Shown here: one piece after another, positions 1,858-20,088 of the stretch
Position numbering within the stretch: the stretch's first letter is position 1
Layout of the letters: every line of letters begins with the position of its first letter
From: a virus
Virus record (IMG/VR): IMGVR_UViG_3300010885_013243
Location: 1-22,314 of that record
Length of the DNA stretch: 22,314 nt
Strand: one strand, 5' to 3'
Position numbers and translations under genes: made by a program
Notes under the pieces: model-generated
Databases searched by the model: none
What the model saw: only the letters and a program-made list of their open reading frames with translations
What the model was told of the DNA's origin: nothing

Positions 1858-2472
1858 ATGCTTAAATTTACGGTCCACAATCACAAAGTTTGTATGGATC
1901 CCAGCGTAGTTCTTTTAGAAGAATTTTCTAATATACTTGCTTACGGCAAGAAGAAGAAAGACGAGGATCTCGGCAATCGTATGCTTTTATATATATTCTT
2001 CTGTTGCGACTTAACAGAAGATAATTTTATGCGTGATATAGATTTCAGGCAAAAACCTGAACAAGCTCTTATGCGCGCTTTTGCAGGTAAAAAATCAAAA
2101 TTTACAGATGAGGAGCAAGATCTTGTTGATGCTGGCATTGCTGCTTACAATTTCTTCAATGAAACTTCTGCAGAACGAGCTGTGCTTGCCATAGATAAAA
2201 AGATAGACGAGGCCAGAACAGTTTTAGAAAATGAAACTATAGAAATAATACGCACTACAAATGAAAATACTGGTGAAGTAAAATTTGTAACTAACGAAAC
2301 CATACTTTCTAAACTTGCTGAAAACATAGGAAAATTGATGACGCTAAAAATTAGTGTTATGAATGCCGCTAAAAAGATGGAAAATACCGGACGTGTACGT
2401 GGTGGAAAAGGTTCATCTTTATTGGAGCGTGGAGGATTGATACAAAGACCTGACGACGAAGACGATGAGTAG
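1858..2472 (+). CDS. Putative terminase small subunit (TerS-like)
   Basis: This 204-residue protein lies directly upstream of TerL, and its last 8 bases overlap the TerL start, which is the classic TerS-TerL arrangement. The first 130 residues are predicted mixed alpha-helical. The C-terminal half has long amphipathic helices (about residues 103-130 and 150-175), followed by a Gly/Arg-rich segment and a very acidic tail ending in DDEDDE. Small terminases usually have a DNA-binding N-terminus and a helical oligomerisation core, and an acidic or flexible tail could contact TerL. No specific helix-turn-helix was identified, so the call rests mainly on position and size. It could instead be another conserved crAss-like protein of unknown role. 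Confidence 0.5.
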   Translation: MLKFTVHNHKVCMDPSVVLLEEFSNILAYGKKKKDEDLGNRMLLYIFFCCDLTEDNFMRDIDFRQKPEQALMRAFAGKKSKFTDEEQDLVDAGIAAYNFFNETSAERAVLAIDKKIDEARTVLENETIEIIRTTNENTGEVKFVTNETILSKLAENIGKLMTLKISVMNAAKKMENTGRVRGGKGSSLLERGGLIQRPDDEDDE

Positions 2473-5400
2473 TATTAAAAAATTAAAGAAAGTGAATCTT
2501 AATAAAATACCTCATATGCATGGGGTTAAGAATAATTATGATCCTTTCAAATTAGATTTTTTACGTACTGATGAGCGCGGTAAAATATGGAATGGTGAGT
2601 TTGATGTTACAGATGCCCCTAAAAAATTAATAGGTGTATCTTCAGGCGCAGAAGAAATAAAACTTACAGATTACCTTGTCTACAGGCCCATACCCAAAGA
2701 GCTTATAGCTTGGAGAGAAATACCAAACTACCATCCAGATAGTATGGATATGGAAGACTGGTACAGGCCTCTAGTTAATTTTTGCTACAGAGGTGTTTGG
2801 GTAGACGGAGAATATTATAATCCTTATTTTGTATACTGGCTAAATATATTTGTATTTCCTGTGCCTGTATACGACAAAGACGGGCAGCCCACTGAAGATT
2901 TTATAGTCTCTCATCCTCAATATAGTAATATAGATAGATACTACTTTGATTACTCTTGGAAGGCTTATTTGAATCATAAGGATTCTGCTATAATGGGAGG
3001 TCGTGGCGTCGGAAAAGCCACAAGTCTGGGTACAGAGCTGCCAATTGTAGGAGGTCTATACAAAAAAATGGGGGATATAGAATTGGGAGACCAAGTATTT
3101 GACAGATCAGGTCGACCAACTACTGTGACAGCTATATATGACCATCAAGATAAAGACATGTACCGTGTAACTTTAAAAGATGGTAGGTCTCTGGATGTAT
3201 GTAATGAGCACCTATGGGGTGTATATGACCATAAGAAAAAATACAATTTACCAGAAAGAGATAAGCCTACAGATAGATACCCTAAAGGTAGATTTAAAAA
3301 AGTTAAAGGTGTATACACTGTAGTTGACACTCAAACTATCATAAATGAGGGATTGACTATGGGTACTAGATGTGATAACCGCTGGTATCTACCTATGCAA
3401 GAAGCTGTCCAAAGACCAGAGATTAATTACATAATAGACCCATATATAATGGGTGCTTTATTAGGAGATGGTGGTGTTTCTTTGAAATCCACTATCACTA
3501 TGACCACACACACAGATGATATTCAAATAATCAATTTGATAGCTGAAAGATTACCAAAAGGGGCTTTTATAAGTAAAAAGGCTGGTAAATATTCTTGGAG
3601 TATATCTGGCGATGGTAAATATAACCCAGTATTAAATGAATTACGCAGATTAGGGGTTCAAGGCCATAATTGCTATAATAAGTCTATACCTGAAACTTAT
3701 TTAACAGGGTCAGAGAGGCAAAGATTAGAGTTACTAAGGGGCCTGATGGACGCAGATGGTGGTACTACGTCTACTGGAACCCCTGAATGGTCTTCTGTGT
3801 CGGAAGAATTAGCAAATGATTTTTGTAAACTATGTGCTTCATTAGGAATTAGATTTTCAAGGGATATAAAATTAAGGGAGGGTAACGGTGTAGGTTATGA
3901 CTACAGAGTAAGATTAATAACTAGTAAGAGTGTCTTTAATTTACAACGTAAAAAAGATAAGGAGATCACAGAACCTGGTAATGGTTGGTCTGCAAGTATT
4001 AAAAATAGAGTTGCTGTAGTAGATATAAAATACTTGGGCAAACAAAACGCTAGGTGTATAACTGTAGACAATGAAGAACATTTATTTCAAGCTGGTGAGC
4101 ATCATATTGTTACACATAATACATATATGATAAATAATATATTAGATAGAGAATTTAGATTAATCCCCAATAGTCTTACTCTTGTGTCTTCCACTAATGA
4201 AGAAACCACTAACGAAGCTTGGAACAAAATAGAATCTGGTTTAAATGCGATTGAATCACTGCACCGCGCTTTAAAATTAAAACTTATAACAGATTCTTCT
4301 GAAACTAAATATGCTGGTGAGAGAGTAGAATTACCAGATGGCACGCCGGAAGATAGAGGAACTCTCAGTAGGTTTGAAAAAATTATATACGGTAAAAACC
4401 CAGGTAAAACCAGAGGTAAACGTCCTACTAAACAATTAGTAGAGGAGTTTGCGGCTTTTCCACCATCACACCAAAAAGGTTCTTTAGGGGCTTGTAAAAG
4501 AGAAAGCCGCGGTTCTTGGTATGTAATGGGTAGTATCAAAAAATGCCAAGTGTATTATTCTGGTACAGGAGGTACTATAGAAAATGATGAAGCAGAAGGA
4601 ATATTTTGTAACCCTGATGCACATGAAATTTTAGCTACTGAAGACTTTGGTATTAAGACTGGTTTCTTCTGCCCTACTCATATTAAGCGCGCGGGTACTT
4701 GGGAAAAGACTGGTTGCCCAGATGTAACTACTGCTACCACGGAAGTTATGCGAGAACGTGAAGCTGCTAAAAGTGATCCAGAATCTTACATGGGTTTACT
4801 ACAAGAATATCCCATGACCATTAAAGAAGTATTTATACGTAAAGGTTCTAATATATTTGATCAAGATAAAATAGCAACTCAACGTATAAATTTAGATATG
4901 AACCCAGATATACCTAAACCTGAAAAAGGTTTTCTTAAATGGGTGCGAGCAGAAAATGGAAAAATAACAGGAGTAGAATGGGATCCTAGTCCTTATGGAG
5001 ATATAGAAATTATAGAACACCCTCATTGGTTATCCGAGGCAGCGTTGCCAGAAGAAAGAGTTCCTTTACCAAATTTATATGTAGGAGGTGTCGATAGTAT
5101 TGACCAAGGTACAGGGGATTCTGCTTATGCAAAAGATAATAAAAAAGGATCTGAATTAGCAGCACTTGTTAAAAAGCGTATATTAGACAAGGGTTATTTT
5201 AGAACCACTTCTAATTTGTATGTAGCAAAGTATAAAAAAAGATCAGCAGACGTTCGAGATGACTGGGACAATGCTTTGAAATTAGCCTATTACTATAATT
5301 CAGAAATGAATATAGAGTACACTAAGATAGGTATAGTCAGTCATTTCCGTGACAGAGGATTTTATCACTTATTAAAGAAAAGGCCTACCATTAATTTACA

Positions 5401-5854
5401 AAACGCAGACCCTAATAAACAAACTCACCTTATAGGTACTACAGCTGGTGGCCCTATCATAGATCACCAAGATCAAAAGATAAAAGCGTATATAGATGAC
5501 TTTTATGACACTATATATTTTAAAGATCTTTTAGAACACTTACAAGATTACAACCGCGAGGATAGGACTAAATTTGACCTTGTTATAGCTATGGGATTAT
5601 GTGAATTATCTGATGAAGACCTTATGGGGGCTATAGCTAAACCTAAAGAAACTCAGTCTGATAAACTACAATTATTTGGTTACTACACAGAGTATGTAAA
5701 TGGTCAACCTGTAAAAAAATATGGTGTAATACCTGATAAATCCGACGGTAAAAAAGAATTAGATGCTGCTATGTCTAAATCCTTTAATCAGCATGGAGGT
5801 GTAAGATGGATAGATATGACTGACCCTAAAAACCCCCAATACATCTACGAGTAA
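2465..5854 (+). CDS. terL: Terminase large subunit (TerL) interrupted by an in-frame intein
   Basis: The translated product is 1129 residues. Removing the intein (residues 185-552) leaves a 761-residue TerL. TerL is the ATP-driven packaging motor and headful nuclease that docks on the portal. The ATPase half contains the Walker A sequence GGRGVGK, ending at Lys184 and continuing after the intein with Thr553-Tyr-Met. A likely Walker B is LVEEF, with Glu660/Glu661 in precursor numbering. The nuclease half begins near LYVGGVDSIDQG, where Asp877 is a likely metal ligand, and FDLVIAMG near the C-terminus fits the last conserved motif of RNase H-fold terminase nucleases. The ATG overlaps the end of the upstream gene. 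Because the intein splits the P-loop between Lys and Thr, the unspliced protein should not be able to hydrolyse ATP normally. Confidence 0.93.
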   Translation: MSSIKKLKKVNLNKIPHMHGVKNNYDPFKLDFLRTDERGKIWNGEFDVTDAPKKLIGVSSGAEEIKLTDYLVYRPIPKELIAWREIPNYHPDSMDMEDWYRPLVNFCYRGVWVDGEYYNPYFVYWLNIFVFPVPVYDKDGQPTEDFIVSHPQYSNIDRYYFDYSWKAYLNHKDSAIMGGRGVGKATSLGTELPIVGGLYKKMGDIELGDQVFDRSGRPTTVTAIYDHQDKDMYRVTLKDGRSLDVCNEHLWGVYDHKKKYNLPERDKPTDRYPKGRFKKVKGVYTVVDTQTIINEGLTMGTRCDNRWYLPMQEAVQRPEINYIIDPYIMGALLGDGGVSLKSTITMTTHTDDIQIINLIAERLPKGAFISKKAGKYSWSISGDGKYNPVLNELRRLGVQGHNCYNKSIPETYLTGSERQRLELLRGLMDADGGTTSTGTPEWSSVSEELANDFCKLCASLGIRFSRDIKLREGNGVGYDYRVRLITSKSVFNLQRKKDKEITEPGNGWSASIKNRVAVVDIKYLGKQNARCITVDNEEHLFQAGEHHIVTHNTYMINNILDREFRLIPNSLTLVSSTNEETTNEAWNKIESGLNAIESLHRALKLKLITDSSETKYAGERVELPDGTPEDRGTLSRFEKIIYGKNPGKTRGKRPTKQLVEEFAAFPPSHQKGSLGACKRESRGSWYVMGSIKKCQVYYSGTGGTIENDEAEGIFCNPDAHEILATEDFGIKTGFFCPTHIKRAGTWEKTGCPDVTTATTEVMREREAAKSDPESYMGLLQEYPMTIKEVFIRKGSNIFDQDKIATQRINLDMNPDIPKPEKGFLKWVRAENGKITGVEWDPSPYGDIEIIEHPHWLSEAALPEERVPLPNLYVGGVDSIDQGTGDSAYAKDNKKGSELAALVKKRILDKGYFRTTSNLYVAKYKKRSADVRDDWDNALKLAYYYNSEMNIEYTKIGIVSHFRDRGFYHLLKKRPTINLQNADPNKQTHLIGTTAGGPIIDHQDQKIKAYIDDFYDTIYFKDLLEHLQDYNREDRTKFDLVIAMGLCELSDEDLMGAIAKPKETQSDKLQLFGYYTEYVNGQPVKKYGVIPDKSDGKKELDAAMSKSFNQHGGVRWIDMTDPKNPQYIYE
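3017..4120 (+). mobile_element. Class 3-type intein with LAGLIDADG homing endonuclease inside TerL Walker A
   Basis: This segment encodes 368 residues between Lys184 and Thr553 of the TerL precursor. Block A begins ATSLGTELP, so the first residue is Ala, not Cys or Ser. Block B is DVCNEHLWGV, with the block B His (intein residue 65) and a Trp two positions on (67). Two dodecapeptides of a LAGLIDADG endonuclease follow: GALLGDGG (Asp at intein 151) and LLRGLMDADGG (Asp at 245/247). Block F contains RCITVD, with Cys at intein 347. The C-terminus is VTHN, with Thr366-His367-Asn368, followed by extein Thr. Trp (B:12), Cys (F:4) and Thr (G:5) form the WCT set known for class 3 inteins. In that class the block F Cys replaces the missing N-terminal nucleophile. 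Both splicing and endonuclease motifs look intact. Confidence 0.92.
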
Positions 5855-5909: not shown

Positions 5910-6509
5910 ATGAAAATAGAAAAAAGTAAAATTAATCCAAAGGGATTTAATGTATTAGCAGAAGTTACTGTCTTTGAGAAAATTAAAGATAATATTTATG
6001 TAGGCCCTGATGCTTTAGCCTCTAAAACTAGTATAGAGTTTTATTATGGCAAAGCTATAAAACTAGGAGATTCTGCAGACAGTGTGGAGCATTGCCCAGA
6101 GTTAAAAGAAGGAGATAATATTATATTTTCTCAATTTGCTGGTTACGCCGCAACCACTGTAGATGGATATTGTAAAATAATTAGAGGTCACGATATTGTG
6201 GCTATTGTTGAAGGTAATTTTGAAGATATGACAGAGAACACGTTAAAACCAACTGAAGAAAGAATTTTAGTTAAAATTATAGGTGAAGATTTAATAGATG
6301 AAAATGGTATATATGATGACACAGAAGACCCTAGGGATGCTGTTACTCAAAAAGGTGTAGTTATTAGATGCGCAGAAAACGCTACTCAATACGCCCCTGG
6401 TACTATTGTTTCATTTGACCCTTTTTGTGGTAATTTAATTGTTAATGAGCCTAATTTAAAACTAAAAACTATAAATAGTTTAGATGTATTATACACTATA
6501 GAAAAATAA
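5910..6509 (+). CDS. Protein with two tandem GroES/Cpn10-like domains (putative co-chaperonin)
   Basis: The ATG at 5910 gives 199 residues. The same frame is open upstream to a TTG at 5889, but the ATG is the better start. Domain 1 (about residues 10-102) has the GroES C-terminal pattern: GDNIIFSQFAGY, a short turn, DGYCKIIRGHDIVAIVE. This corresponds to the GDxVLFxxYAGxE...GEEYLILRESDILAIVE arrangement of Cpn10. Domain 2 (about 112-199) repeats it: PTEERILVKII, a variable mobile-loop-like stretch (130-147), KGVVIRCA, APGTIVSFDPFCGN, and INSLDVLYTIE. GroES caps GroEL, and T4 gp31 is a phage substitute used to fold its capsid protein. The gene sits between TerL and portal, consistent with a role in folding virion proteins. 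The domain-level homology is read from sequence pattern. Function as a GroEL partner is inferred. Confidence 0.7.
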   Translation: MKIEKSKINPKGFNVLAEVTVFEKIKDNIYVGPDALASKTSIEFYYGKAIKLGDSADSVEHCPELKEGDNIIFSQFAGYAATTVDGYCKIIRGHDIVAIVEGNFEDMTENTLKPTEERILVKIIGEDLIDENGIYDDTEDPRDAVTQKGVVIRCAENATQYAPGTIVSFDPFCGNLIVNEPNLKLKTINSLDVLYTIEK

Positions 6510-6513
6510 ATAA

Positions 6514-8880
6514 ATGAGTAGTTTAGGCAGGTATTATAACATAGAAGACACTGCGGTTTCTGAAGAAGAGAAATCACAGTTTAATTATCTTAGTCATACT
6601 ATAGATTTTTATATTGCTGCTCTAGTGAGAGAAAAAACTCACATTAAAACTGCTAGAAATTTATATGATGGGGTACGTAACAAAGATGAGTTTAGATATC
6701 TGGAGGAAACTTTTGGTATGGAAACTGCATTAGCGGTAAAGATGACTCCACTTATTAAAACAAGAATAGATGTATTAGTAGGATTATTTTTAGATGAAGA
6801 CTTTTTATATAGAGTCTCTGTAAACGATGCTCCTACTATTACTCAAATAGAAGAGCAAAAAAGAAAAGTTTATGCTGATAAACTTATACAAAAACTTGAT
6901 GCTTTTTATAAAGAAAATATTCAATTAGCGAATGAAGGTAAAGACCCTGTAAAAAATGCTTTTGAAAAAGATTTTTTTGAAAAATTAAATAAAAGTTTAA
7001 CTGAAGACTTTATCTCTGAATTTGAGATAGCTATACAAGCCTTGATTAAATTTTTCGAGCAAGATCCTACTATAAACATTAAGCAAAAAATGAAACAAAT
7101 GCTTATTGATTTCTTAGTTACAGGAGAAGCTTATTATAGAACTTATTTAGATTACGAAGGAGGAGATCCTAAATTAGAAGTTTGTAAACCTGAAAATTTA
7201 TTTTTTAGTAAAAATACAAACTACCAAAATTTATCTGAAGGAAACGAGCCTAGAGTATTTGCTGTAGTTCACCGTACTTACATGAAACGTATGGAGATTT
7301 TAAATCGCTGGGGCCATGTAATGACTGAAGAACAAAAAACAACTCTATACGGCCAAGCAAAATCCACAGCAGTAAATCGCATCAGAGATCCTAGACAATT
7401 AGACCACATGTATAATTTACAAGACGCTGTATATGATCAACATACTAACAGTACTTGGGATACATTACCAGTTTACCATGTAGAATGGCTGGCTAATAAT
7501 GAAGTGAAATTAGAGGCCGAAGAAGGTTCAAAGTTTGAAGTAGTAGAACATATAGCTAAAAGTAAATACTGGAAGGGCAGCTTAGTTCCTGATGGTTACT
7601 TAGGTAAGGGCGCTGGTACTGGTGAAGTAAATGAAAAAGGTTATAGGTTAGATCGCTACGAAGGAGTAAGAATAGGTTGGGATATATACTTAAATCTAGG
7701 TAAAAGTAAACATACACCACGTAGTATAGGGTCACCTTACAAAACTACTTTATCTTATAACGGGGTTTGTTACAATGATAGGAACTCTAAGCCTTATTCT
7801 TTAGCATTATCTTTAAAAGGTATACAAGATTCTTACGATATTATCACTTTCTTTAGGGATAATCTTATTGCAAATTCAGGAGTAAACGGTTCTCGCGTAA
7901 ATCTAGCTGCTATACCAAAAGTATTAGGCCAAGACTTTATGGAGCGTATACTTAAATTTATAGCTTTCCGTAAACAAGGATTAGAATTATATGACCCTAC
8001 AGAAGACGGAGCAGCTTTATTCAACAACTATGGTGACTTCAGCGGTTCTTTAGATGGTAATGTAATACAATCTTTGAGTTTAGTTCTAGAATCTTTAGAA
8101 AAACAAGCTGACATGGTCACAGGTATCAATAGATATATGTACGCCGCAGCTGAACAAAGAGACGCTGTTACCAATGTTAAAACCGGAATTAAACAAACAT
8201 CTTTGATTATTAAGGACATGTTTGAACTACTATTTGATGCACGCAAAAATGTACTTACAGATTTAGTCAACATGGGTAAAATTTCTTACAAAGAAGGTAA
8301 GAGAGGCTCATATATAGTAGGCCATAGGACTTTATTATTTAATGCTCAACCAGAAAACTTTAGATTTACAGACTACAATATACAATTAATAAATTCCAGT
8401 AGAGAGAATTTAAAAATGGAAAAATTATCTGCTTTAGCCCCACAACTTGCTGGTAAAGGCAGTATAGAAGATGAAGTGTTAGTTAAGTTAATGATGACTG
8501 ATTCTAGCACTGAGGCTTTAAGATTAGTAGATGAAAGTATGATCAAACGTAAAGAAGAGAATGATCAAGTAAAACAGTTGTCTCAACAATTACAACAACT
8601 TCAAGAGCAATCAAAACAACTACAAGCAGAATTACAAAAAGTCAGCCAAGAAAAAGAACAATTAGAAAAGGTTGATAGAGAATACAAAAATAAAGAGCTA
8701 GAATACAGGTATCAAAGAGAGGATAAACGTATAGAACTTGCTGAAGAAAAACAAGACCACGAAAAAGAAATAGCTGAAGCTGAAGTTGTTAAAGATCAAG
8801 AAATTGTAAAACTTGAAAGAGAACAATTATACTCTGACAATGTGAAAGGCAACGCTAAAGAAGTTAGAAATAATATATAA
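6514..8880 (+). CDS. Portal protein (crAss-like)
   Basis: This 788-residue protein starts 4 bases after the GroES-like gene. It has the features of large crAss-like and P22-type portals: an N-terminal helical region, LVREKTHIKTARNLYDG, with VKMTPLIKTRIDVLVGLFLDE (about residues 75-100), and a central wing/stem region. A long charged and Gln-rich coiled coil covers about residues 679-775 and probably corresponds to the portal barrel. The portal forms the dodecameric ring at the unique vertex and is the docking site for TerL and for the neck proteins. Its place after TerL and before scaffold and MCP is the usual head-gene order. The stop codon overlaps the start of a 46-residue ORF. The call is strong from size, order and recognised N-terminal sequence. 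Confidence 0.88.
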   Translation: MSSLGRYYNIEDTAVSEEEKSQFNYLSHTIDFYIAALVREKTHIKTARNLYDGVRNKDEFRYLEETFGMETALAVKMTPLIKTRIDVLVGLFLDEDFLYRVSVNDAPTITQIEEQKRKVYADKLIQKLDAFYKENIQLANEGKDPVKNAFEKDFFEKLNKSLTEDFISEFEIAIQALIKFFEQDPTINIKQKMKQMLIDFLVTGEAYYRTYLDYEGGDPKLEVCKPENLFFSKNTNYQNLSEGNEPRVFAVVHRTYMKRMEILNRWGHVMTEEQKTTLYGQAKSTAVNRIRDPRQLDHMYNLQDAVYDQHTNSTWDTLPVYHVEWLANNEVKLEAEEGSKFEVVEHIAKSKYWKGSLVPDGYLGKGAGTGEVNEKGYRLDRYEGVRIGWDIYLNLGKSKHTPRSIGSPYKTTLSYNGVCYNDRNSKPYSLALSLKGIQDSYDIITFFRDNLIANSGVNGSRVNLAAIPKVLGQDFMERILKFIAFRKQGLELYDPTEDGAALFNNYGDFSGSLDGNVIQSLSLVLESLEKQADMVTGINRYMYAAAEQRDAVTNVKTGIKQTSLIIKDMFELLFDARKNVLTDLVNMGKISYKEGKRGSYIVGHRTLLFNAQPENFRFTDYNIQLINSSRENLKMEKLSALAPQLAGKGSIEDEVLVKLMMTDSSTEALRLVDESMIKRKEENDQVKQLSQQLQQLQEQSKQLQAELQKVSQEKEQLEKVDREYKNKELEYRYQREDKRIELAEEKQDHEKEIAEAEVVKDQEIVKLEREQLYSDNVKGNAKEVRNNI

Positions 8881-9020
8881 TGAAGAAATATAAAATATTT
8901 TTAAATCCTAAAACTTTAGTAATTGTAAATGAATATCAATTATACAAAGAAAGATGGATAAAATATTTTGGTGGTATAGATGAAGTAAAAGAATTTATAA
9001 AAAATTATAAACAAGAGTAA
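8880..9020 (+). CDS. Small ORF of 46 residues, unknown
   Basis: The ATG at 8880 shares its A with the portal stop codon (TAATG overlap), and the ORF ends one base before the ATG of the next gene. It is tightly packed with no spare sequence, which argues that it is a real gene. The product is basic and rich in Lys, Tyr, Ile and Phe, beginning MKKYKIFLNPKTLVIVNEY and containing RWIKYFGG. It has no cysteine, signal peptide or clear membrane segment. No family is recognised. Coupled translation with the portal is likely from the stop-start overlap. Confidence 0.55.
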   Translation: MKKYKIFLNPKTLVIVNEYQLYKERWIKYFGGIDEVKEFIKNYKQE

Positions 9021-9021
9021 A

Positions 9022-10089
9022 ATGAGCGATATCAGAATTGTAGAATCTATGGCCACTAGTGGTGGATTAAAAGATCCAGTATTTAGATTAGATCCTAATA
9101 TAGAAAATATTAGCTTGGTTTGGAATCAAGAAAATGAAAATTTAACTGTTGTAGATTACAATTTAGATTATTTTTCTTTACCATTTTATCATAGCGATCC
9201 AAAATATTTTGTAAAAAAAGTGTTTTTAACTTACAATGGTAAGAATAAAAGTAATGGGGAGTTGACAGAAACAGTATTAATGGAGTCTGCTAACGGCGGA
9301 GATTTAAATCAAATACCCGGTTATAATAATTCTAATGAGTGGATATATAATCCTAAATCTTTTAGTTATAACCCTGAGTTAAGAAATTTAACTAATCCAG
9401 CGGATTATGCAAATTTACCATTTGATTATAGCCAAGGATTCACAGTAGTTAAACAATTCTTAACTTCTCAAGCAAATCTAACTCCAGGAACTCCTGCTTA
9501 CACTGCTTTTTACAGAGCACCTCATTTAACTTCTTTTTTACCTACCAACGTAGATAATAATAGAATATACGTAGATGGGTGGTACACAAGTTATGTAATA
9601 GCTTGTAAATCTTGGTATTCAGCAGGACCTACTGTAAATGGTACTTTTTTAGGGGATATTTTATTTTTCGATGGAGATAATCAATTTTATGTAAATATAA
9701 CAGGCTCTGCTGGGACCACTTCTTTAACACCAGATTTAAATCATTGGAAACCTAATCCTTCTTTTACAGACTGGACTAATTTGATGAGAGCTAATAGAGA
9801 TGTTTTGTCAGTAGATAGTTCTATACAATACATAGAAACACAACATTTGGTAACAGCTGAATTAAATTCTGCTATACTTAAGGAATTAAAATGCCAATGT
9901 AGTTGCTGTGATAAACCAGATTTTAATACGTCAAAATTATTGACTTACATGAAACTTATGCAAAAACGTTTAGGCGCTTATGTGCAGTTTAATGCAGAGA
10001 TATTCCATGAGGCTTCTTGTATCATAGAAAGCTCTAGACAAATTTGCTCATTATGTTTATATTCTAATTCTGCTGGAGGATGTTGTTAA
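9022..10089 (+). CDS. Unrecognised virion-type protein with Cys-rich C-terminal domain
   Basis: This 355-residue protein has an N-terminal beta-rich region rich in Asn, Tyr and Pro, typical of phage surface or fibre-like proteins. The C-terminal 65 residues (about 291-355) are helical and hold nine cysteines: 291, 293, 295, 296, 333, 342, 345, 354 and 355. They lie in KCQCSCC, IICSLC-like and terminal GGCC clusters. The cysteines suggest metal binding or disulfides. The start ATG is one base after the preceding small ORF, and the end overlaps the next gene by 10 bases. In crAss-like phages the stretch between portal and MCP commonly encodes head fibre or decoration proteins, so such a role is possible. 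That assignment comes only from position and composition. Confidence 0.65.
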   Translation: MSDIRIVESMATSGGLKDPVFRLDPNIENISLVWNQENENLTVVDYNLDYFSLPFYHSDPKYFVKKVFLTYNGKNKSNGELTETVLMESANGGDLNQIPGYNNSNEWIYNPKSFSYNPELRNLTNPADYANLPFDYSQGFTVVKQFLTSQANLTPGTPAYTAFYRAPHLTSFLPTNVDNNRIYVDGWYTSYVIACKSWYSAGPTVNGTFLGDILFFDGDNQFYVNITGSAGTTSLTPDLNHWKPNPSFTDWTNLMRANRDVLSVDSSIQYIETQHLVTAELNSAILKELKCQCSCCDKPDFNTSKLLTYMKLMQKRLGAYVQFNAEIFHEASCIIESSRQICSLCLYSNSAGGCC

Positions 10090-10475
10090 ATTTTACAGAT
10101 GATTATATTAATACTATTGAAAATGGTAGGCTATTACTAGGTGATATACAATTGTATTTATCACAAAAAGAACCTTACATGGGTAATTCTCCTGCTTTAG
10201 ATAGGCTATATGCACAATCAATAGTGATCTCCGGTATTATAGATTATTTTGAAAATTGCGATAACAGTAATCCTAGAGAAGATGAAGCTTTGCTTATGTG
10301 TTTGAGATCAGCTATAGATAAAAATATTTGCAGACGCAGCAGAAATATATTTAAAGATAAGACTAATTACCATGTGCCGTTGCCTTATAATCCTAACCCA
10401 GGAGGTCCAGTAATAGTACCTTATACCCCACCTAAAGAAGAAAATAACTTTGGCAACGTGGGAAGTTTTGACTAA
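10080..10475 (+). CDS. Unrecognised 131-residue protein coupled to the Cys-rich gene
   Basis: The ATG lies inside the last codons of the preceding gene (10-base overlap), so translation is probably coupled. The first 90 residues look alpha-helical (a NFTDDYINTIENGRLLLGDIQ-type start) with cysteines in ENCDNS, LMCL and NICRR. The last 40 residues are Pro-rich (LPYNPNPGGPVIVPYTPP), ending in a short flexible tail. The helical Cys-containing part resembles in style the C-terminal domain of the upstream protein, which suggests that the two products interact. No known family is recognised. A head-surface or accessory role is possible from position. Confidence 0.6.
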   Translation: MLLNFTDDYINTIENGRLLLGDIQLYLSQKEPYMGNSPALDRLYAQSIVISGIIDYFENCDNSNPREDEALLMCLRSAIDKNICRRSRNIFKDKTNYHVPLPYNPNPGGPVIVPYTPPKEENNFGNVGSFD

Positions 10476-10504
10476 TAAAAAATATTAACCATAATACAAA
10501 TAAC

Positions 10505-12249: not shown

Positions 12250-13674
12250 ATGAAAATTGTAGACAGAAACACCGTCGTACAGCATTTAGGTGACACTAAA
12301 ACTGTACAAAATTTCGGTACTTTGTTGGGAGCTAAACCTCACAAACTTGGTACTGTAGTAACAATGTACAAAAACTTGGCATTGTCAACTTTAACTGATG
12401 CGTTAAAAAACGTATATTACAATCCTAAAAAAGATTCTAATTCTTATGTTCCAGTTAACTCTATGGTTATTGAATGGACTATTGATGTGAACTTTATCAA
12501 AAAAGTAAAAATTGTAAGTCCTGGTACTATCGTATCTGGTTCAGGTGCTAACAAATCTGTAGAGTCTATTATCTTAGCTGAAAAATACTACGATAAAAAT
12601 GATACATTTACATTGGAAAACAAACAACAATTATTCGTTGTTGCTCCACCACGTAAATTGGCTCAAGGTCGTTGGGAATACAAAGTTTCATTGGTAGGTA
12701 ATGATTATTCAAAAACTATCAACTATTTGTATTGTGCTGCTGGTAAAGATACTCGTTACCGTTCTAACTACCACCCAGAACTTTCTGAGAGAGGTTATTC
12801 TAAATTCATCTCCAACACTGAGACTCACCGTAACTACTTGTCTCGTCAAAGAGCATCTGTAAGCTGGTCATCTGACTTTGCTTTACATGAAGAAGTTTAT
12901 TTACAAATGGGAAAAAACGAAAAAGACGCTGATTCTTATTTCAAAATGAACAAGAAAGAAAAAGAATGTTTAGATACTTTCTTGATTTCTCGTGAGCAAA
13001 ACTGTCTTTTCTCTGAAACTAACTACGATGTTAATGGTCGTTGTTTAGATCAAGATGATCACGGACGTGACATTCCTATGGGAGATGGTGTTATTGCACA
13101 AATCGAAAGATACTGTGATAAATTCTCTTACTCTTTGTTGACTTCTGATGTATTAAATGACGTATTGTCTGCTATGCGTGAGAAATCTGAAACTCCTACT
13201 GGTAACATTTATGCTATTATCTGTAATGAGCGTATGTATGACCAAATGAACACATTGATGGCTAACGACTTACGTTTCATCTCTAGTGCAAATGGTGCTT
13301 ACTTCTGGTCTAAAGCAGCTAACGGTAAAGTTAAAGTAGGTGCTGAGTTTGATACTTACACTTTCTCTGGTAATACTGTTTCTTTCTTGCCTGACAGGGT
13401 TCTTTCTCAAGAATATCCAGAAGGTGGATATGGTATTTTCTTGGATACTGGTGCTGATTTATCTTCAGGTCGTCCTAACGTATCTATGTTTACTTTACAA
13501 GGTTCAGAAATGGTTTCTGGTACTTTAGTAGGTATGGGTGGAGCTTCAGGATCTACTTCAGGAGAAATTTCTACTTCAGTTGCTGGTTCTGAGTATCACT
13601 TGATGGGGTACAGTGGTGTGGTAGTGTTTAATCCATATCGTTCGTTCATAATTCAGGAATCAGTAATTGGTTAA
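12250..13674 (+). CDS. Major capsid protein (crAss-like)
   Basis: This 474-residue protein is followed by a terminator and preceded by its own leader. It has the length and overall sequence style of crAss-like HK97-fold capsid proteins: a short N-terminal segment, an extended basic stretch around VNFIKKVKIVSPG, a charged loop region with RSNYHPELSERGYSKF, a helical spine-like region near EQNCLFSETNYDVNGR to IERYCDKFSYSLL, and a Gly/Ser-rich C-terminal beta region. It is the subunit of the icosahedral shell. Codon use differs from most neighbours (many CGT Arg and TTG Leu codons rather than AGA and TTA), as expected for the most abundant virion protein. Position after the scaffold-like gene supports the call. 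The HK97 fold is inferred from the family. Confidence 0.85.
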   Translation: MKIVDRNTVVQHLGDTKTVQNFGTLLGAKPHKLGTVVTMYKNLALSTLTDALKNVYYNPKKDSNSYVPVNSMVIEWTIDVNFIKKVKIVSPGTIVSGSGANKSVESIILAEKYYDKNDTFTLENKQQLFVVAPPRKLAQGRWEYKVSLVGNDYSKTINYLYCAAGKDTRYRSNYHPELSERGYSKFISNTETHRNYLSRQRASVSWSSDFALHEEVYLQMGKNEKDADSYFKMNKKEKECLDTFLISREQNCLFSETNYDVNGRCLDQDDHGRDIPMGDGVIAQIERYCDKFSYSLLTSDVLNDVLSAMREKSETPTGNIYAIICNERMYDQMNTLMANDLRFISSANGAYFWSKAANGKVKVGAEFDTYTFSGNTVSFLPDRVLSQEYPEGGYGIFLDTGADLSSGRPNVSMFTLQGSEMVSGTLVGMGGASGSTSGEISTSVAGSEYHLMGYSGVVVFNPYRSFIIQESVIG

Positions 13675-16636: not shown

Positions 16637-16655
16637 TTTTTACTTTGATATATTG

Positions 16656-16683
16656 AGCCTCGCCCAACCCGGCGAGGCTTTTT
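16656..16683 (+). terminator. Strong Rho-independent terminator
   Basis: GCCTCGCC (16657-16664) and GGCGAGGC (16671-16678) form a perfect 8-pair GC-rich stem around a 6-base loop, extended by one A-T pair and followed by five Ts. It is the most GC-rich short segment in this AT-rich window and closes the transcript of the 15590 gene. Confidence 0.92.
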
Positions 16684-16738: not shown

Positions 16739-17437
16739 ATGACAGCAAATGAAATATCCAGTACTATAAGAAATAGAGTATACGATGCACTAACAGGTAA
16801 CATCGCAGACCAATCTCTTAGTACTGATCAATTATATGATGAAATAGATTTAGTAAGAGCAGACTTTGTAAATAAGTATGCTATGACTTCTAAGTTAAAT
16901 ACTAAATATTTATTGCAGTCTATAGATAACTTAGAATTAAACTGCACTAGCTTGGCTTACACAGAATGTTGCGATGCATTTAGACATTGTTCAGATGAAG
17001 TGCCTGCCGTAGAAATTCCAGCTTTATTAGCTACACCAGATGATAGTGCAATAGAATATTTAGGGCTGACAAACAAACAAGAAAAATTTTCAGTGTATTT
17101 TAGCACTACAGATATAGATAACCATAAATACCGTATAAAAACAGCCAAGAGGCCTTATGTATTTGTTGATACTACTTTGAACGCTAACAACAAATATACA
17201 TTATACTTTTTTAATATGGGTTCTCATAATCCGTTAAAATACGTTTCTATTAGAGCCATGTTTACTCTGCCTTCTTCAGTTATGCCTTATGACTTTAACT
17301 ACTTAGATAGAGAATATCCTGCGCCTGCTCATATGCAAATGGCTATAATAGATAATCTTACAGAGAAATACGTTAGATACTACAGGCAGCTAGGAGTAAC
17401 CCAAGTTCCAAATCAACAAAACGATAACATTAAATAA
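16739..17437 (+). CDS. Putative ring/adaptor protein of the neck
   Basis: This 232-residue protein begins with an all-helical segment, TANEISSTIRNRVYDALTG, then LSTDQLYDEIDLVRADFVNKY (about residues 27-47). This is the helical-bundle start typical of podovirus head-tail adaptors. It continues as beta-rich sequence with a Cys-containing stretch (LNCTSLAYTECCDAFRHC) and ends in a helix, HMQMAIIDNLTEKYVRYYRQLG, with a flexible Asn/Gln tail. Helix-beta-helix order is common to P22 gp4/T7 gp11-like adaptors and to crAss-like ring proteins. It starts just after a strong terminator and palindrome, so it is probably the first gene of a new transcription unit. The ferritin gene follows 3 bases later. 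Assignment is by layout and order. Confidence 0.5.
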   Translation: MTANEISSTIRNRVYDALTGNIADQSLSTDQLYDEIDLVRADFVNKYAMTSKLNTKYLLQSIDNLELNCTSLAYTECCDAFRHCSDEVPAVEIPALLATPDDSAIEYLGLTNKQEKFSVYFSTTDIDNHKYRIKTAKRPYVFVDTTLNANNKYTLYFFNMGSHNPLKYVSIRAMFTLPSSVMPYDFNYLDREYPAPAHMQMAIIDNLTEKYVRYYRQLGVTQVPNQQNDNIK

Positions 17438-17440
17438 ATC

Positions 17441-17992
17441 ATGGCTTTAGAAAAGATTATAAACAATTCAGATAATAACGCTATTAAAAATGGCTTAATA
17501 AATACTGAATGTGTAGAATTATTAAACTTTAGAATTACAGAAGAAGATAAATCTGCTAGATTATATCATAACATGTATATGTTTTTGAATAATAAAGGTT
17601 ATACTGGGGCGGGAGAATTATGGCATAAGTACGGACATGAAGAGGAAGTACATTCTGATTGGGCTAGAAATTACTTATTAGATCTTGGTATACAACCAGA
17701 GCTTAGAGATTTACCAGCTATTATGCCCAAAGAGTATAAAAGTTTTCCAGAAGTAATACGCTTATCTTATGACCACGAAGTAGAAATTACAAATCAGTGT
17801 AAAGAACTAGCGGCTTGCGCTATGAAATGCGGAGACCATATGTTATATCAATTAGCGTTGAAATTTTTAGCAGAGCAAATAGAAGAGATTGGTAAGATGC
17901 AAACTTGGTTAGATAAACTAGAAGCATTTGGAGAAGGTCCAGAGGCTCTTAGATTTTTAGATAATGAAATGGGTGAATTAGCAAAAGGTTAA
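17441..17992 (+). CDS. Ferritin (FtnA-type non-haem ferritin) encoded in the phage neck/tail cluster
   Basis: This 183-residue protein has the four-helix ferritin pattern and all classic diiron-centre ligands. Glu35 lies in EEDKSARLYHNM, Glu68 and His71 in HEEEVHSDW, Glu113 in YDHEVEIT, and Gln146 and Glu149 in FLAEQIEEI. These align with Glu17, Glu50, His53, Glu94, Gln127 and Glu130 of E. coli FtnA. The similarity continues to the end: WLDKLEAFG...EALRFLDNEMGEL corresponds to the FtnA C-terminal helix. Ferritins oxidise Fe2+ and store it as ferric mineral in 24-subunit shells. The gene lies 3 bases after a ring-type gene and 3 bases before the next ORF, so it is an integral member of the late operon. 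Whether it assembles a cage, sits in the virion, or manages iron in the infected cell cannot be told from sequence. Confidence 0.93.
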   Translation: MALEKIINNSDNNAIKNGLINTECVELLNFRITEEDKSARLYHNMYMFLNNKGYTGAGELWHKYGHEEEVHSDWARNYLLDLGIQPELRDLPAIMPKEYKSFPEVIRLSYDHEVEITNQCKELAACAMKCGDHMLYQLALKFLAEQIEEIGKMQTWLDKLEAFGEGPEALRFLDNEMGELAKG

Positions 17993-17995
17993 TAA

Positions 17996-18118
17996 ATGTT
18001 ATTATACAAAAAAGGCGGGTCTGTAAAAGAATCTATGAATTGCGGAGAAGTTAAACCTTCACCCAATAAACATAAGAAAATCATGAAACTGTATTGTATT
18101 AATGGTAAGAAAAATTAG
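17996..18118 (+). CDS. N-terminal half of a frame-split small basic protein
   Basis: The ATG lies 3 bases after the ferritin stop. It encodes 40 residues beginning MLLYKKGGSVKESMNCGE and ends at TAG (18116-18118) just after a run of five A (18110-18114). The reading continues in the -1 frame without a gap: inserting one A into the run would join INGKK to KLVHAGDDRY. The full-length product would be about 83 residues. The start YKKGGSVK is of a kind common in crAss-like small proteins. Either a one-base deletion (biological or sequencing) or a frameshift signal separates the halves. Confidence 0.6.
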   Translation: MLLYKKGGSVKESMNCGEVKPSPNKHKKIMKLYCINGKKN

Positions 18119-18246
18119 TGCATGCAGGTGATGATAGATACGTAAATAATGTAGATTCTAAAAGAGCAGCTTTTAAAGCTAGGCATAAATGTAGTACAGC
18201 AAAGCCAGGCACAGCTAGACATTTGGCTTGCACAGAATTATGGTAA
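18118..18246 (+). CDS. C-terminal half of the frame-split small protein (RHKC...LACTELW module)
   Basis: This frame is open from 18109. A GTG at 18118 overlaps the TAG of the upstream half and would give 42 residues if used. The sequence VHAGDDRYVNN, then FKARHKCSTAKPGTARHLACTELW up to the TAA at 18244-18246, is a small Lys/Arg- and Cys-containing module recognisable in many phages as RHxC..AKPGTxxxLACxxLW. The two Cys and conserved His/Trp suggest a compact, possibly metal-binding fold. Preservation of the whole module argues that the frame break is recent, recoded or an assembly error. Function is unknown. Confidence 0.6.
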   Translation: MHAGDDRYVNNVDSKRAAFKARHKCSTAKPGTARHLACTELW

Positions 18247-18261
18247 TAAAATAAAAATATT

Positions 18262-19338
18262 ATGATATTAAAAAAATACCGATCCGGTAATGTTTTTTCT
18301 TTCCCAGAAAACCATGACTTTATTTACAGGGAGTCTGGAGGCACTTATGAAAAGCTACCTCTTAACGCCGTGTTTTTGAAAAATGCTAATAAAATTAAAG
18401 GCCCTTTAAAATATTATAAAGTTGATGAAAATCAGATTGAAAAATTAAATAATTATCACAAAACAATAGATGTGCCAGAGTTTTTGTACCCAGGAAATCC
18501 TAAATTTAAATACCAAGTTGATAGGTCTTCCGGTAAAATACTTAAAGCCCCTATAAATTCTAAAAATCCCAATAGCTATTACGAAGTTGATAGTAAGCAA
18601 CAAGCTAAAATGAAAGCCTACTTAGCAAACAATGCGGATAAAATCAAGGCTGAAAATGAAAAAAGATTTTACTCTGTGGAAGATCCTAAATATCAAGATG
18701 TAATTAATTTAACTACATTTAACAGAGAATTAACTGAACCAACCATTAAGAGTAATACTGCAAATTTAACTACTGGTAGATATAATACCGGTAAAGTACC
18801 TACACAAACTTTGGATAGCATTGTAGCTGCCGCAGATAGACATGGTATAGATAGAAGTATAGCTTTAGCTATGGCTGGCAGAGAAAGTACTTTTGGTTAC
18901 GGCGTGCAAGAGGAGACTGGAGAGCGTAGAGGGCAAAATCCTGTAAACGTCATGAGCGCCTGGGCTCCTAAAATAGCTGCAATGGACCCTGTAAATACAA
19001 CCTTCCACAGCAATAAAAAATTAGCTCAAAAATACGATAATTTATTACATAAATATAATCAAAAAGAAGGACTTTTTTATGATTTAACCTCTGATTATGA
19101 TAAGTTACCTTTACAAGAAAGAAAAGAATTATATAAAAAATTTGTAGATCAAACACAATATAGTAAAAAGTTTTTTGACTCAACAAATTCTGGTTCTTAT
19201 GAATATATCATGCGTCATCTGAAAAATGTTGGTATTCAAGGTTGGAATCCTAAAGACCCTAACTATGGAAGAGCTATACAAAAAGATGTTGAATTAATTA
19301 AAAGAGACCCAGTATTAAATAAATATTTAAAAAAATAA
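18262..19338 (+). CDS. Putative virion lytic transglycosylase-like protein
   Basis: This 358-residue protein has two parts. The N-terminal 130 residues contain two copies of an approximately 55-residue repeat, seen best as YYKVDENQIEKLNNY (51-65) and YYEVDSKQQAKMKAY (106-120). Each copy is preceded by an F-x-Y/SG...LP or KAPIN stretch. The middle (about residues 185-215) has SIVAAADRHGIDRSIALAMA followed by GRESTFGYG, which fits the SLT/lysozyme-like pattern with Glu208 as the likely catalytic acid. The C-terminal part is helical and includes NVGIQGWNPKDPNYGRAIQKD. Such enzymes cut peptidoglycan glycan strands, and in phage structural operons they help the genome cross the cell wall. No signal peptide is seen. 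The catalytic assignment is from motif pattern and needs structural confirmation. Confidence 0.6.
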   Translation: MILKKYRSGNVFSFPENHDFIYRESGGTYEKLPLNAVFLKNANKIKGPLKYYKVDENQIEKLNNYHKTIDVPEFLYPGNPKFKYQVDRSSGKILKAPINSKNPNSYYEVDSKQQAKMKAYLANNADKIKAENEKRFYSVEDPKYQDVINLTTFNRELTEPTIKSNTANLTTGRYNTGKVPTQTLDSIVAAADRHGIDRSIALAMAGRESTFGYGVQEETGERRGQNPVNVMSAWAPKIAAMDPVNTTFHSNKKLAQKYDNLLHKYNQKEGLFYDLTSDYDKLPLQERKELYKKFVDQTQYSKKFFDSTNSGSYEYIMRHLKNVGIQGWNPKDPNYGRAIQKDVELIKRDPVLNKYLKK

Positions 19339-19341
19339 TAT

Positions 19342-20088
19342 ATGGCACAGGAACAAACAGCTACACCTTTTTACGATTTTATGTATCCTAAGTTTTTACT
19401 GAAGGATCTTTATGATATAGATATGACTCCAGACGATTATTTAGAGCGAGCATATAATGTCTTCAGAGCTATAGGAAATATAGCTGTAGGTGTGCATTCT
19501 TTTTCTTTTACTGTGGATAGTACTAAAAAAGTAAAATTACCTTGCAATTGTGAATTTATAGAAGCAGTTTCTAGTGATGAAAACCCTCTTATGCGTGAAG
19601 AAGAATTAGTTATTTACTCTTCAAACTCAAATATATCTCCTAACGCTTATCTAGCTGATATAGTTTCTAATGAAGAATTAAGAAGAATCATTATACCTCA
19701 AAGTAGTAATTTACATCCTACAGGGCAATTAGTTCCTTATAATCTAGAGCATAAACATTTACATTTCAACGATGAACAAATTGGTGCAAGATGTGTATGT
19801 ATATATAGAGGGGTTTTAGTAGATGATCAAGATAATCCTTTATTATTCAGAAAAGAAGCCGAAGCCATAGCCGCAAAATTAGCTTTTGTACATACTCAAA
19901 AACAAGTATTTATGAGAGATCCTGCAGCAGCAAATATATTAGCTTATATAAAACCGGAATCTGAAAGATTAATGGCTGCCGCTAAAATACCAGAATATAT
20001 TTCTCAAAATCAATGGGATAGAATACTTGCAGCTAAAGTTAGGAATGATAGAAAAGTATTTAATAGATCTTTTAAATCATTACAATAA
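19342..20088 (+). CDS. Putative tail-tube/adaptor protein (P22 gp4 / T7 gp11-like type)
   Basis: This 248-residue protein begins with FYDFMYPKFLLKDLYDIDMTPDDYLERAYNVFRAIGN, a helical opening (about residues 10-46). It is followed by beta-sequence with KVKLPCNCEFIEAVSSDE, which matches the arrangement in crAss-like tail tubular proteins. It ends in long helices (about 165-245: EAEAIAAKLAFVHTQKQVFM, ESERLMAAAKIPEY) with a basic tail. Adaptors of this type form a ring between portal and tail tip. It directly precedes another conserved gene (TAATG stop-start overlap), two genes before the stabilisation protein, which is the expected neighbourhood. The exact ring position is inferred. Confidence 0.55.
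   Translation: MAQEQTATPFYDFMYPKFLLKDLYDIDMTPDDYLERAYNVFRAIGNIAVGVHSFSFTVDSTKKVKLPCNCEFIEAVSSDENPLMREEELVIYSSNSNISPNAYLADIVSNEELRRIIIPQSSNLHPTGQLVPYNLEHKHLHFNDEQIGARCVCIYRGVLVDDQDNPLLFRKEAEAIAAKLAFVHTQKQVFMRDPAAANILAYIKPESERLMAAAKIPEYISQNQWDRILAAKVRNDRKVFNRSFKSLQ

Follow-up and report, generated by a model that had tools for sequence, protein, structure and literature searches.

We found a complete FtnA-type ferritin gene within the neck/tail module of a phage that its capsid gene classes as crAss-like, and in two sister lineages the homologous position is filled in turn by ferritin or by a protein whose sequence resembles Dps. The stretch of DNA analysed (the window) is an IMG/VR virus record of 22.3 kb (22,314 nucleotides). 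We consider it fairly probable (approximately 0.6) that this catalytically complete ferritin oxidises and sequesters iron in late infection or assembly, with its N-terminal tail as the probable address.

The ferritin subunit (P0001) is encoded on the + strand at 17441-17992 by an ORF that starts with ATG, ends with TAA and has a product of 183 aa. A preliminary description of this DNA had recognised a complete ferritin here, and this was borne out. The Pfam Ferritin profile (PF00210, curated cut-off 24.5 bits) matched P0001 with 70.3 bits (E = 2.1e-19), residues 26-161 falling on profile positions 2-140, and the HMM search gave no placement in a non-ferritin family. The score against the NCBIfam FtnA equivalog (NF007638) was 68.3 bits, far under the cut-off of 178, so that the protein is, judged by its sequence, FtnA-like rather than an FtnA orthologue. 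The nearest solved proteins were the V. cholerae ferritin (3qz3, 6e-19) and E. coli FtnA (1eum, 6.5e-16), aligned over almost the full FtnA length. The monomer predicted by AlphaFold2 (input with 49 family members, pLDDT 90.8) has five helices (residues 22-51, 55-81, 102-129, 133-163 and 167-182), forming a four-helix bundle with the diiron site and a short fifth helix. It superposed on 3qz3 at 1.0 Å across 165 residues (Z 25.7), and Foldseek gave a TM score of 0.97 by target length against the V. cholerae ferritin. The agreement with FtnA along the whole length, C-terminal helix included, had thus been described correctly. P0001 shares with the E. coli and V. cholerae proteins the fold, ferroxidase sites A and B, most of site C and the short C-terminal helix, but differs from them in its identity of 30-34%, in an extra N-terminal tail of about 20 aa and in being phage-encoded within a virion module.

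The six diiron ligands named in the preliminary description (E35, E68, H71, E113, Q146 and E149) fall on those of E. coli FtnA in the alignment and were unvarying across 68 distinct relatives, as were E145, E148 and Y42. E67 was discarded as a conserved ligand (G or D in 20 of the 68 ferritins). The argument that intact ligands indicate an active enzyme is supported by this invariance, and by likeness to FtnA the protein would form a 24-subunit cage with ferroxidase activity. The gene is under strong purifying selection: dN/dS was 0.06-0.14 against three related loci (L002, L003 and L005), equal to or below the values for the capsid and ring genes in the same pairs.

Within the window, the left border of the ferritin slot is a gene for a ring-2-type tail barrel protein (16739-17437, + strand), which scored 26.8 bits against CrAss_Ring_2 (PF25702), narrowly under the cut-off of 27, and 19.7 bits against Ring 3/4. 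The spacing of 3 bases on both sides of ferritin was confirmed, the ring-type ORF ending at 17437 and the next ORF starting at 17996. On the + strand, a terminator-like hairpin was detected 5' of ring 2 (16655-16680), with no further one separating ring 2 from ferritin; consequently, both genes are probably co-transcribed. The small gene 3' of ferritin (17996-18246, + strand) appears as two overlapping ORFs (40 and 42 aa) that jointly match one intact 84-aa ORF in L002-L004, the split being a frameshift, a sequencing error or a programmed event. It is followed by a glucosaminidase-like accessory gene (18262-19338, + strand; PF01832, 24.6 bits, below the cut-off of 30.2) with no counterpart in the ferritin-bearing loci compared from the same lineage (group A below). 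Gene-order comparison placed the right border of the group A slot at a conserved structural-module gene (19342-20088, + strand).

The major capsid gene (12250-13674, + strand) matched Crass_capsid (PF23898) with 69.6 bits, by which the window is assigned to the crAss-like phages (Crassvirales); the same profile matched representatives of two further lineages, group B (L053, 99.6 bits) and group C (L048, 449.5 bits). The portal gene (6514-8880, + strand; phrog_6547) clusters with the group B and C portals. The capsid match, the ring-2-type neighbour and a gene order repeated in relatives agree with the earlier view that the ferritin is native to a crAss-like structural module. Two other genes of the window deserve mention. 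The TerL ORF (2465-5854) encodes 1129 aa, compared to 754-774 aa in full-length group A copies; LAGLIDADG_3 is matched inside it with 28.7 bits and the edges look intein-like, so that TerL probably contains an intein. A 206-aa ORF at 5889-6509 matches Cpn10 (GroES) with 29.3 bits; its group A counterparts (about 195-199 aa) lie between terminase and portal. Proteins of 87 aa that look like GroES by eye are encoded in the portal-scaffold stretch of two group C loci (L171, 6470-6733; L173, 6466-6729), where "scaffold" is a name taken only from the position before the capsid gene.

A profile search detected the ferritin in 58 virus loci. Gene clustering sorted these into three crAss-like arrangements linked by common capsid and portal clusters, and within each lineage related contigs keep ferritin in the same slot: 3' of ring 2 in group A, the lineage of the window; between c2 (a 232-aa gene with a virion structural PHROG match) and c7 in group B; and between the portal gene and the gene preceding the capsid gene in group C. 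The c2 protein did not match ring 2 and matched ring 3/4 weakly (probability 36%). DUF5872 (PF19197) proteins are encoded directly 3' of ferritin in L005 (10567-11187) and directly 5' of it in L002 (9643-9999). In L006, the tail gene that precedes ring 2 has a homing-endonuclease-like gene on either side (6515-7237 and 8445-9236); the two are related, and the second is of the GIY-YIG/NUMOD kind. L059, a 101 kb phage record without crAss gene cluster matches, encodes a ferritin of 163 aa (10001-10492) with an identity of 33% and almost no tail, between genes for proteins of 3330 and 1382 aa.

Slot occupancy was analysed by scanning with three queries (the capsids of groups A and C, and c2), taking phages irrespective of their ferritin content and counting each distinct flanking protein once. 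As the queries came from ferritin-bearing phages the samples are biased, the c2-based one least. Group A slots held ferritin in 8 cases and neither gene in 3; no DUF5856 was found in group A, where the slot holds ferritin or nothing. In group B, 33 slots had ferritin, 46 had DUF5856, 3 had both and 4 had none; the corresponding group C numbers were 19, 9, 3 and 9. In the c2-based sample alone, one or both genes were present in 55 of 59 slots (DUF5856 46, ferritin 7, both 2, none 4). Where the slot was empty, the remainder of the record (up to 107 kb) also gave no match to ferritin or DUF5856, which indicates that the trait is not essential; ferritin is an accessory gene, useful and dispensable at the lineage level. 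No ferritin was found in the stretches examined of the isolated crAss-like phages phi14:2, crAss001, ProJPt-Bp1 and FpV4.

The protein filling most ferritin-free slots of groups B and C belongs to DUF5856 (PF19174, 126-172 aa). Its profile matched H. pylori NapA and other Dps proteins (best 3.3e-7) with the ligands H, H, D and E aligned; the H-x11-H-x14-D-x3-E ferroxidase motif of Dps and miniferritins is retained, and 52 of 65 sequences have the ligand spacing of E. coli Dps. The structural neighbours of its model were mostly Dps (best Z 12.2, 2.6 Å over 120 residues), a Z that helical bundles can reach by chance, and Foldseek returned E values above 0.05. Identification of DUF5856 as a Dps-like mini-ferritin therefore relies on the sequence. 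It represents another branch of the ferritin superfamily than P0001, the classical Dps site being intersubunit. PHROGs names its family (phrog_858) "starvation-inducible transcriptional regulator"; we suggest the functions Dps-like ferroxidase for DUF5856/phrog_858 and ferritin for phrog_16594.

In groups B and C, ferritin and DUF5856 have repeatedly taken each other's place. The distribution of ferritin over the c2 tree requires 15 changes of label, of which well-supported branches force at least 8. The clearest case is the pair L085 and L089: the flanking DNA is 97.5-99% identical on both sides and the first 11 codons (MAEQPRNLLKR) are identical, after which one allele continues as ferritin and the other as DUF5856 up to the stop codon. 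A second contig (L087) holds the ferritin version of this pair. All these contigs are metagenomic and carry a risk of assembly error, but an artefact is unlikely, as the exchanges recur in different samples. The protein that takes over the homologous slot from ferritin is Dps-like and brings a ferroxidase motif of its own; hence, what is kept seems to be iron oxidation/sequestration and not one particular cage. This evidence comes only from groups B and C, the group A of the window having no DUF5856. The replacement of two distant ferroxidase types by each other in one crAss-like structural position is new; in a literature search of incomplete coverage, we came across no account of a ferritin that occupies such a slot in crAss-like phages, nor of one that trades places with Dps while the tail is retained.

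The ferritin core of P0001 is preceded by an N-terminal tail (residues 1-20, 17441-17500, + strand), delimited by alignment and the AlphaFold2 model, in which residues 1-12 had pLDDT values under 50. Tails were 6-50 aa long across the ferritin relatives. Motifs such as MLKRP are frequent in the group B tails and recur in the DUF5856 proteins: an LKR[PNDT]-type motif was present in the first 22 residues of 23 of 68 ferritins and 33 of 67 DUF5856 proteins, compared to 20 of 2153 other ORFs. In pairs of one ferritin and one DUF5856 protein, the tail score tracked c2 identity (Spearman 0.24; 0 of 2000 permutations as high), a comparison of related sequences in which lineage permutation allows for kinship only partly. 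The tails thus appear to follow the phage lineage and not the body that they precede. The window tail (MALEKIINN...) is kept in close relatives and lacks the KR motif. In L175 and L176, the N-terminus (VMLKRIPRPGYFG) of a 265-aa protein encoded 3' of the capsid gene resembles the KR-type motif, a likeness that may be due to chance.

The mechanism that we favour would run as follows. A crAss-like phage would produce the non-haem ferritin subunit alongside the proteins of its neck and tail; as in FtnA, the subunits would assemble into a cage that oxidises Fe(II) at the diiron site and locks the iron as a ferric mineral. The selected job would be the removal of Fenton-active iron around phage DNA or particles in late infection or assembly, or, alternatively, the buffering of iron in the dying host. 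In the two sister lineages, the Dps-like mini-ferritin would do the same chemistry from the homologous slot. The tail would probably direct the cage to a partner of phage origin, perhaps within the particle under assembly. What we infer here is that cages form and are active, when they act, and what the tail does and where it takes them. The preliminary description had offered three functions (virion component, iron scavenger for the infected cell, protection against Fenton damage); of these, the oxidation and sequestration of iron is favoured, since related lineages have the Dps-like replacement at the same position, and the common tails leave a virion or assembly location open.

Incorporation into the virion is a rival explanation. 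Under this reading, the tail would anchor the ferritin or Dps-like protein in the head or neck of the particle, where the protein would shield packaged DNA from Fenton chemistry or deliver iron or ferroxidase to the next host. The genes occupy structural-module slots only, with the portal immediately before them or with a neighbour of ring type or virion structural type, and the tails are kept while the bodies are exchanged. The P22-portal podovirus L238 (MW202483.1, 38.8 kb) also has a DUF5856-like gene directly after its portal gene (6019-6381), the position of group C. Ferritin-like cargo of encapsulins is loaded by a short peptide into a shell with the HK97 fold, and the common N-terminal tails would be compatible with loading of this type. 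EncFtn, a ferroxidase protein described inside the capsid-like encapsulin shell (PMC5012862), is a related case, from which the crAss-like ferritin differs in its N-terminal tail and its full FtnA-type core. The crAss001 virion offers much room for cargo in both its head and its tail (PMC10172136); on the proposed route of ejection, this cargo leaves through constrictions narrower than 50 Å, which a folded 24-mer could not pass. In the Kuttervirus Sajous1, the ferritin-like gp217, encoded beside a tail completion gene, was detected by MS in CsCl-purified particles, where the authors caution about debris; gp217 was called by Phyre2 only, and we liken it to the crAss-like ferritin by description only (PMC10892097). 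A Vi01-like precedent through phrog_858 of ChubbyThor was discarded, as that gene adjoins primase and adenylosuccinate synthase and its identity with the virion-detected gp217 is unsupported. Position is no proof of incorporation: in the tail module of the Cellulophaga phage phi14:2, accessory genes (PAS protein, endolysin, phosphoesterase) just upstream of the MS-detected g074 have no MS/MS annotation beside annotated neighbours. Some lineages also do without the gene. On balance, virion cargo is a tentative proposal, and somewhat improbable.

A cytosolic role would dispense with the virion altogether. Here, a host-like ferritin buffers iron or oxidative stress as a metabolic helper, and the tail is a functionless relic of recombination within the gene. 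Dps and Mn-catalase of other gut phages ("Gratiaviridae" and others) have been interpreted in this way, as proteins that limit oxidative damage (Benler et al. 2021, PMC8008677), and the crAss-like ferritin resembles them as a phage-encoded member of the ferritin superfamily. The sections of that paper on these proteins concern Dps/catalase families; they describe neither an FtnA-type ferritin in a structural slot of crAss-like phages nor an exchange or a common tail. DUF5856 relatives in the T4-like and Ackermannviridae phages examined sit among non-structural genes, unlike the crAss-like slot, and the breakpoint between L085 and L089 lies inside the gene; both observations suit a helper. By contrast, the tail motif persists over diverged lineages and on both bodies, two loci with ferritin and DUF5856 together (L115 and L177) have a similar tail on each, and random metabolic insertion would not be expected to be confined to a few homologous structural slots. 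We regard a purely cytosolic helper as conceivable, at clearly less than even odds.

A broader proposal is an exchangeable "iron-cage" position in the morphogenesis module: ferritin of the 24-mer type or Dps of the 12-mer type would be brought into the particle during assembly by a conserved N-terminal tag, and the virion would be an encapsulin-like compartment for iron handling or DNA protection; this is rather doubtful. The Ferrojan horse idea, raised in the preliminary description, holds that phages gain entry by offering iron in their tail to the iron receptors of the host. It was proposed for other phages (PMC10892097) and the gene does sit in a neck/tail module, but the protein is no tail fibre, we saw nothing that links it to one, and iron enclosed in a cage is not displayed; moreover, Salmonella deficient in TonB and FeoB was infected normally by Vi01-like phages, which are different phages with a ferritin-like virion-associated protein (PMC10892097). 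The idea is unsupported and very unlikely.

That a host gene entered by contig misassembly or recent bacterial transfer has a negligible probability, despite the homology of P0001 to bacterial FtnA: related contigs hold ferritin in the same slot, its GC content (32.4%) matches the window (33.0%), and identity is mostly 43-91% inside the phage family compared to 34% at most to those cellular ferritins that we found. Contamination or a chimera at the ferritin is ruled out by the matching GC and the recurring gene order, and no junction with bacterial DNA was seen. A recent host origin was likewise discarded in the absence of a close cellular relative, identities reaching at most 33% in plasmid records and, L060 aside, 32% as the best value in 61 genomes of one bacterial phylum; the contig scan for cellular ferritins used narrow peptide patterns, and the sampling did not extend to Bacteroidota ferritins. 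L060, a 5.5 kb contig of a Tissierellales MAG, encodes a ferritin 52% identical to that of the window and may be phage DNA binned with its host. Two unannotated Staphylococcus phage records (OR845001.1 and OR850087.1) contain a ferritin match with 28% identity, possibly host DNA in the deposit.

Our literature search on phage and viral ferritin returned only the ferritin of giant viruses, where it is known (PMC7136201), and a paper on gut viromes lists the KEGG ferritin K02217 among viral functions without context (PMC10098016). Ferritin-superfamily genes of phages are usually listed as stray metabolic genes; here, they are swapped within the head/neck module. The swap of the body behind an unchanged tail is natural evidence for iron oxidation as the selected trait. 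Since one phage species exists in both versions, with little else differing, the question of iron in the virion is directly testable. Together, this suggests that handling iron matters when these viruses assemble.
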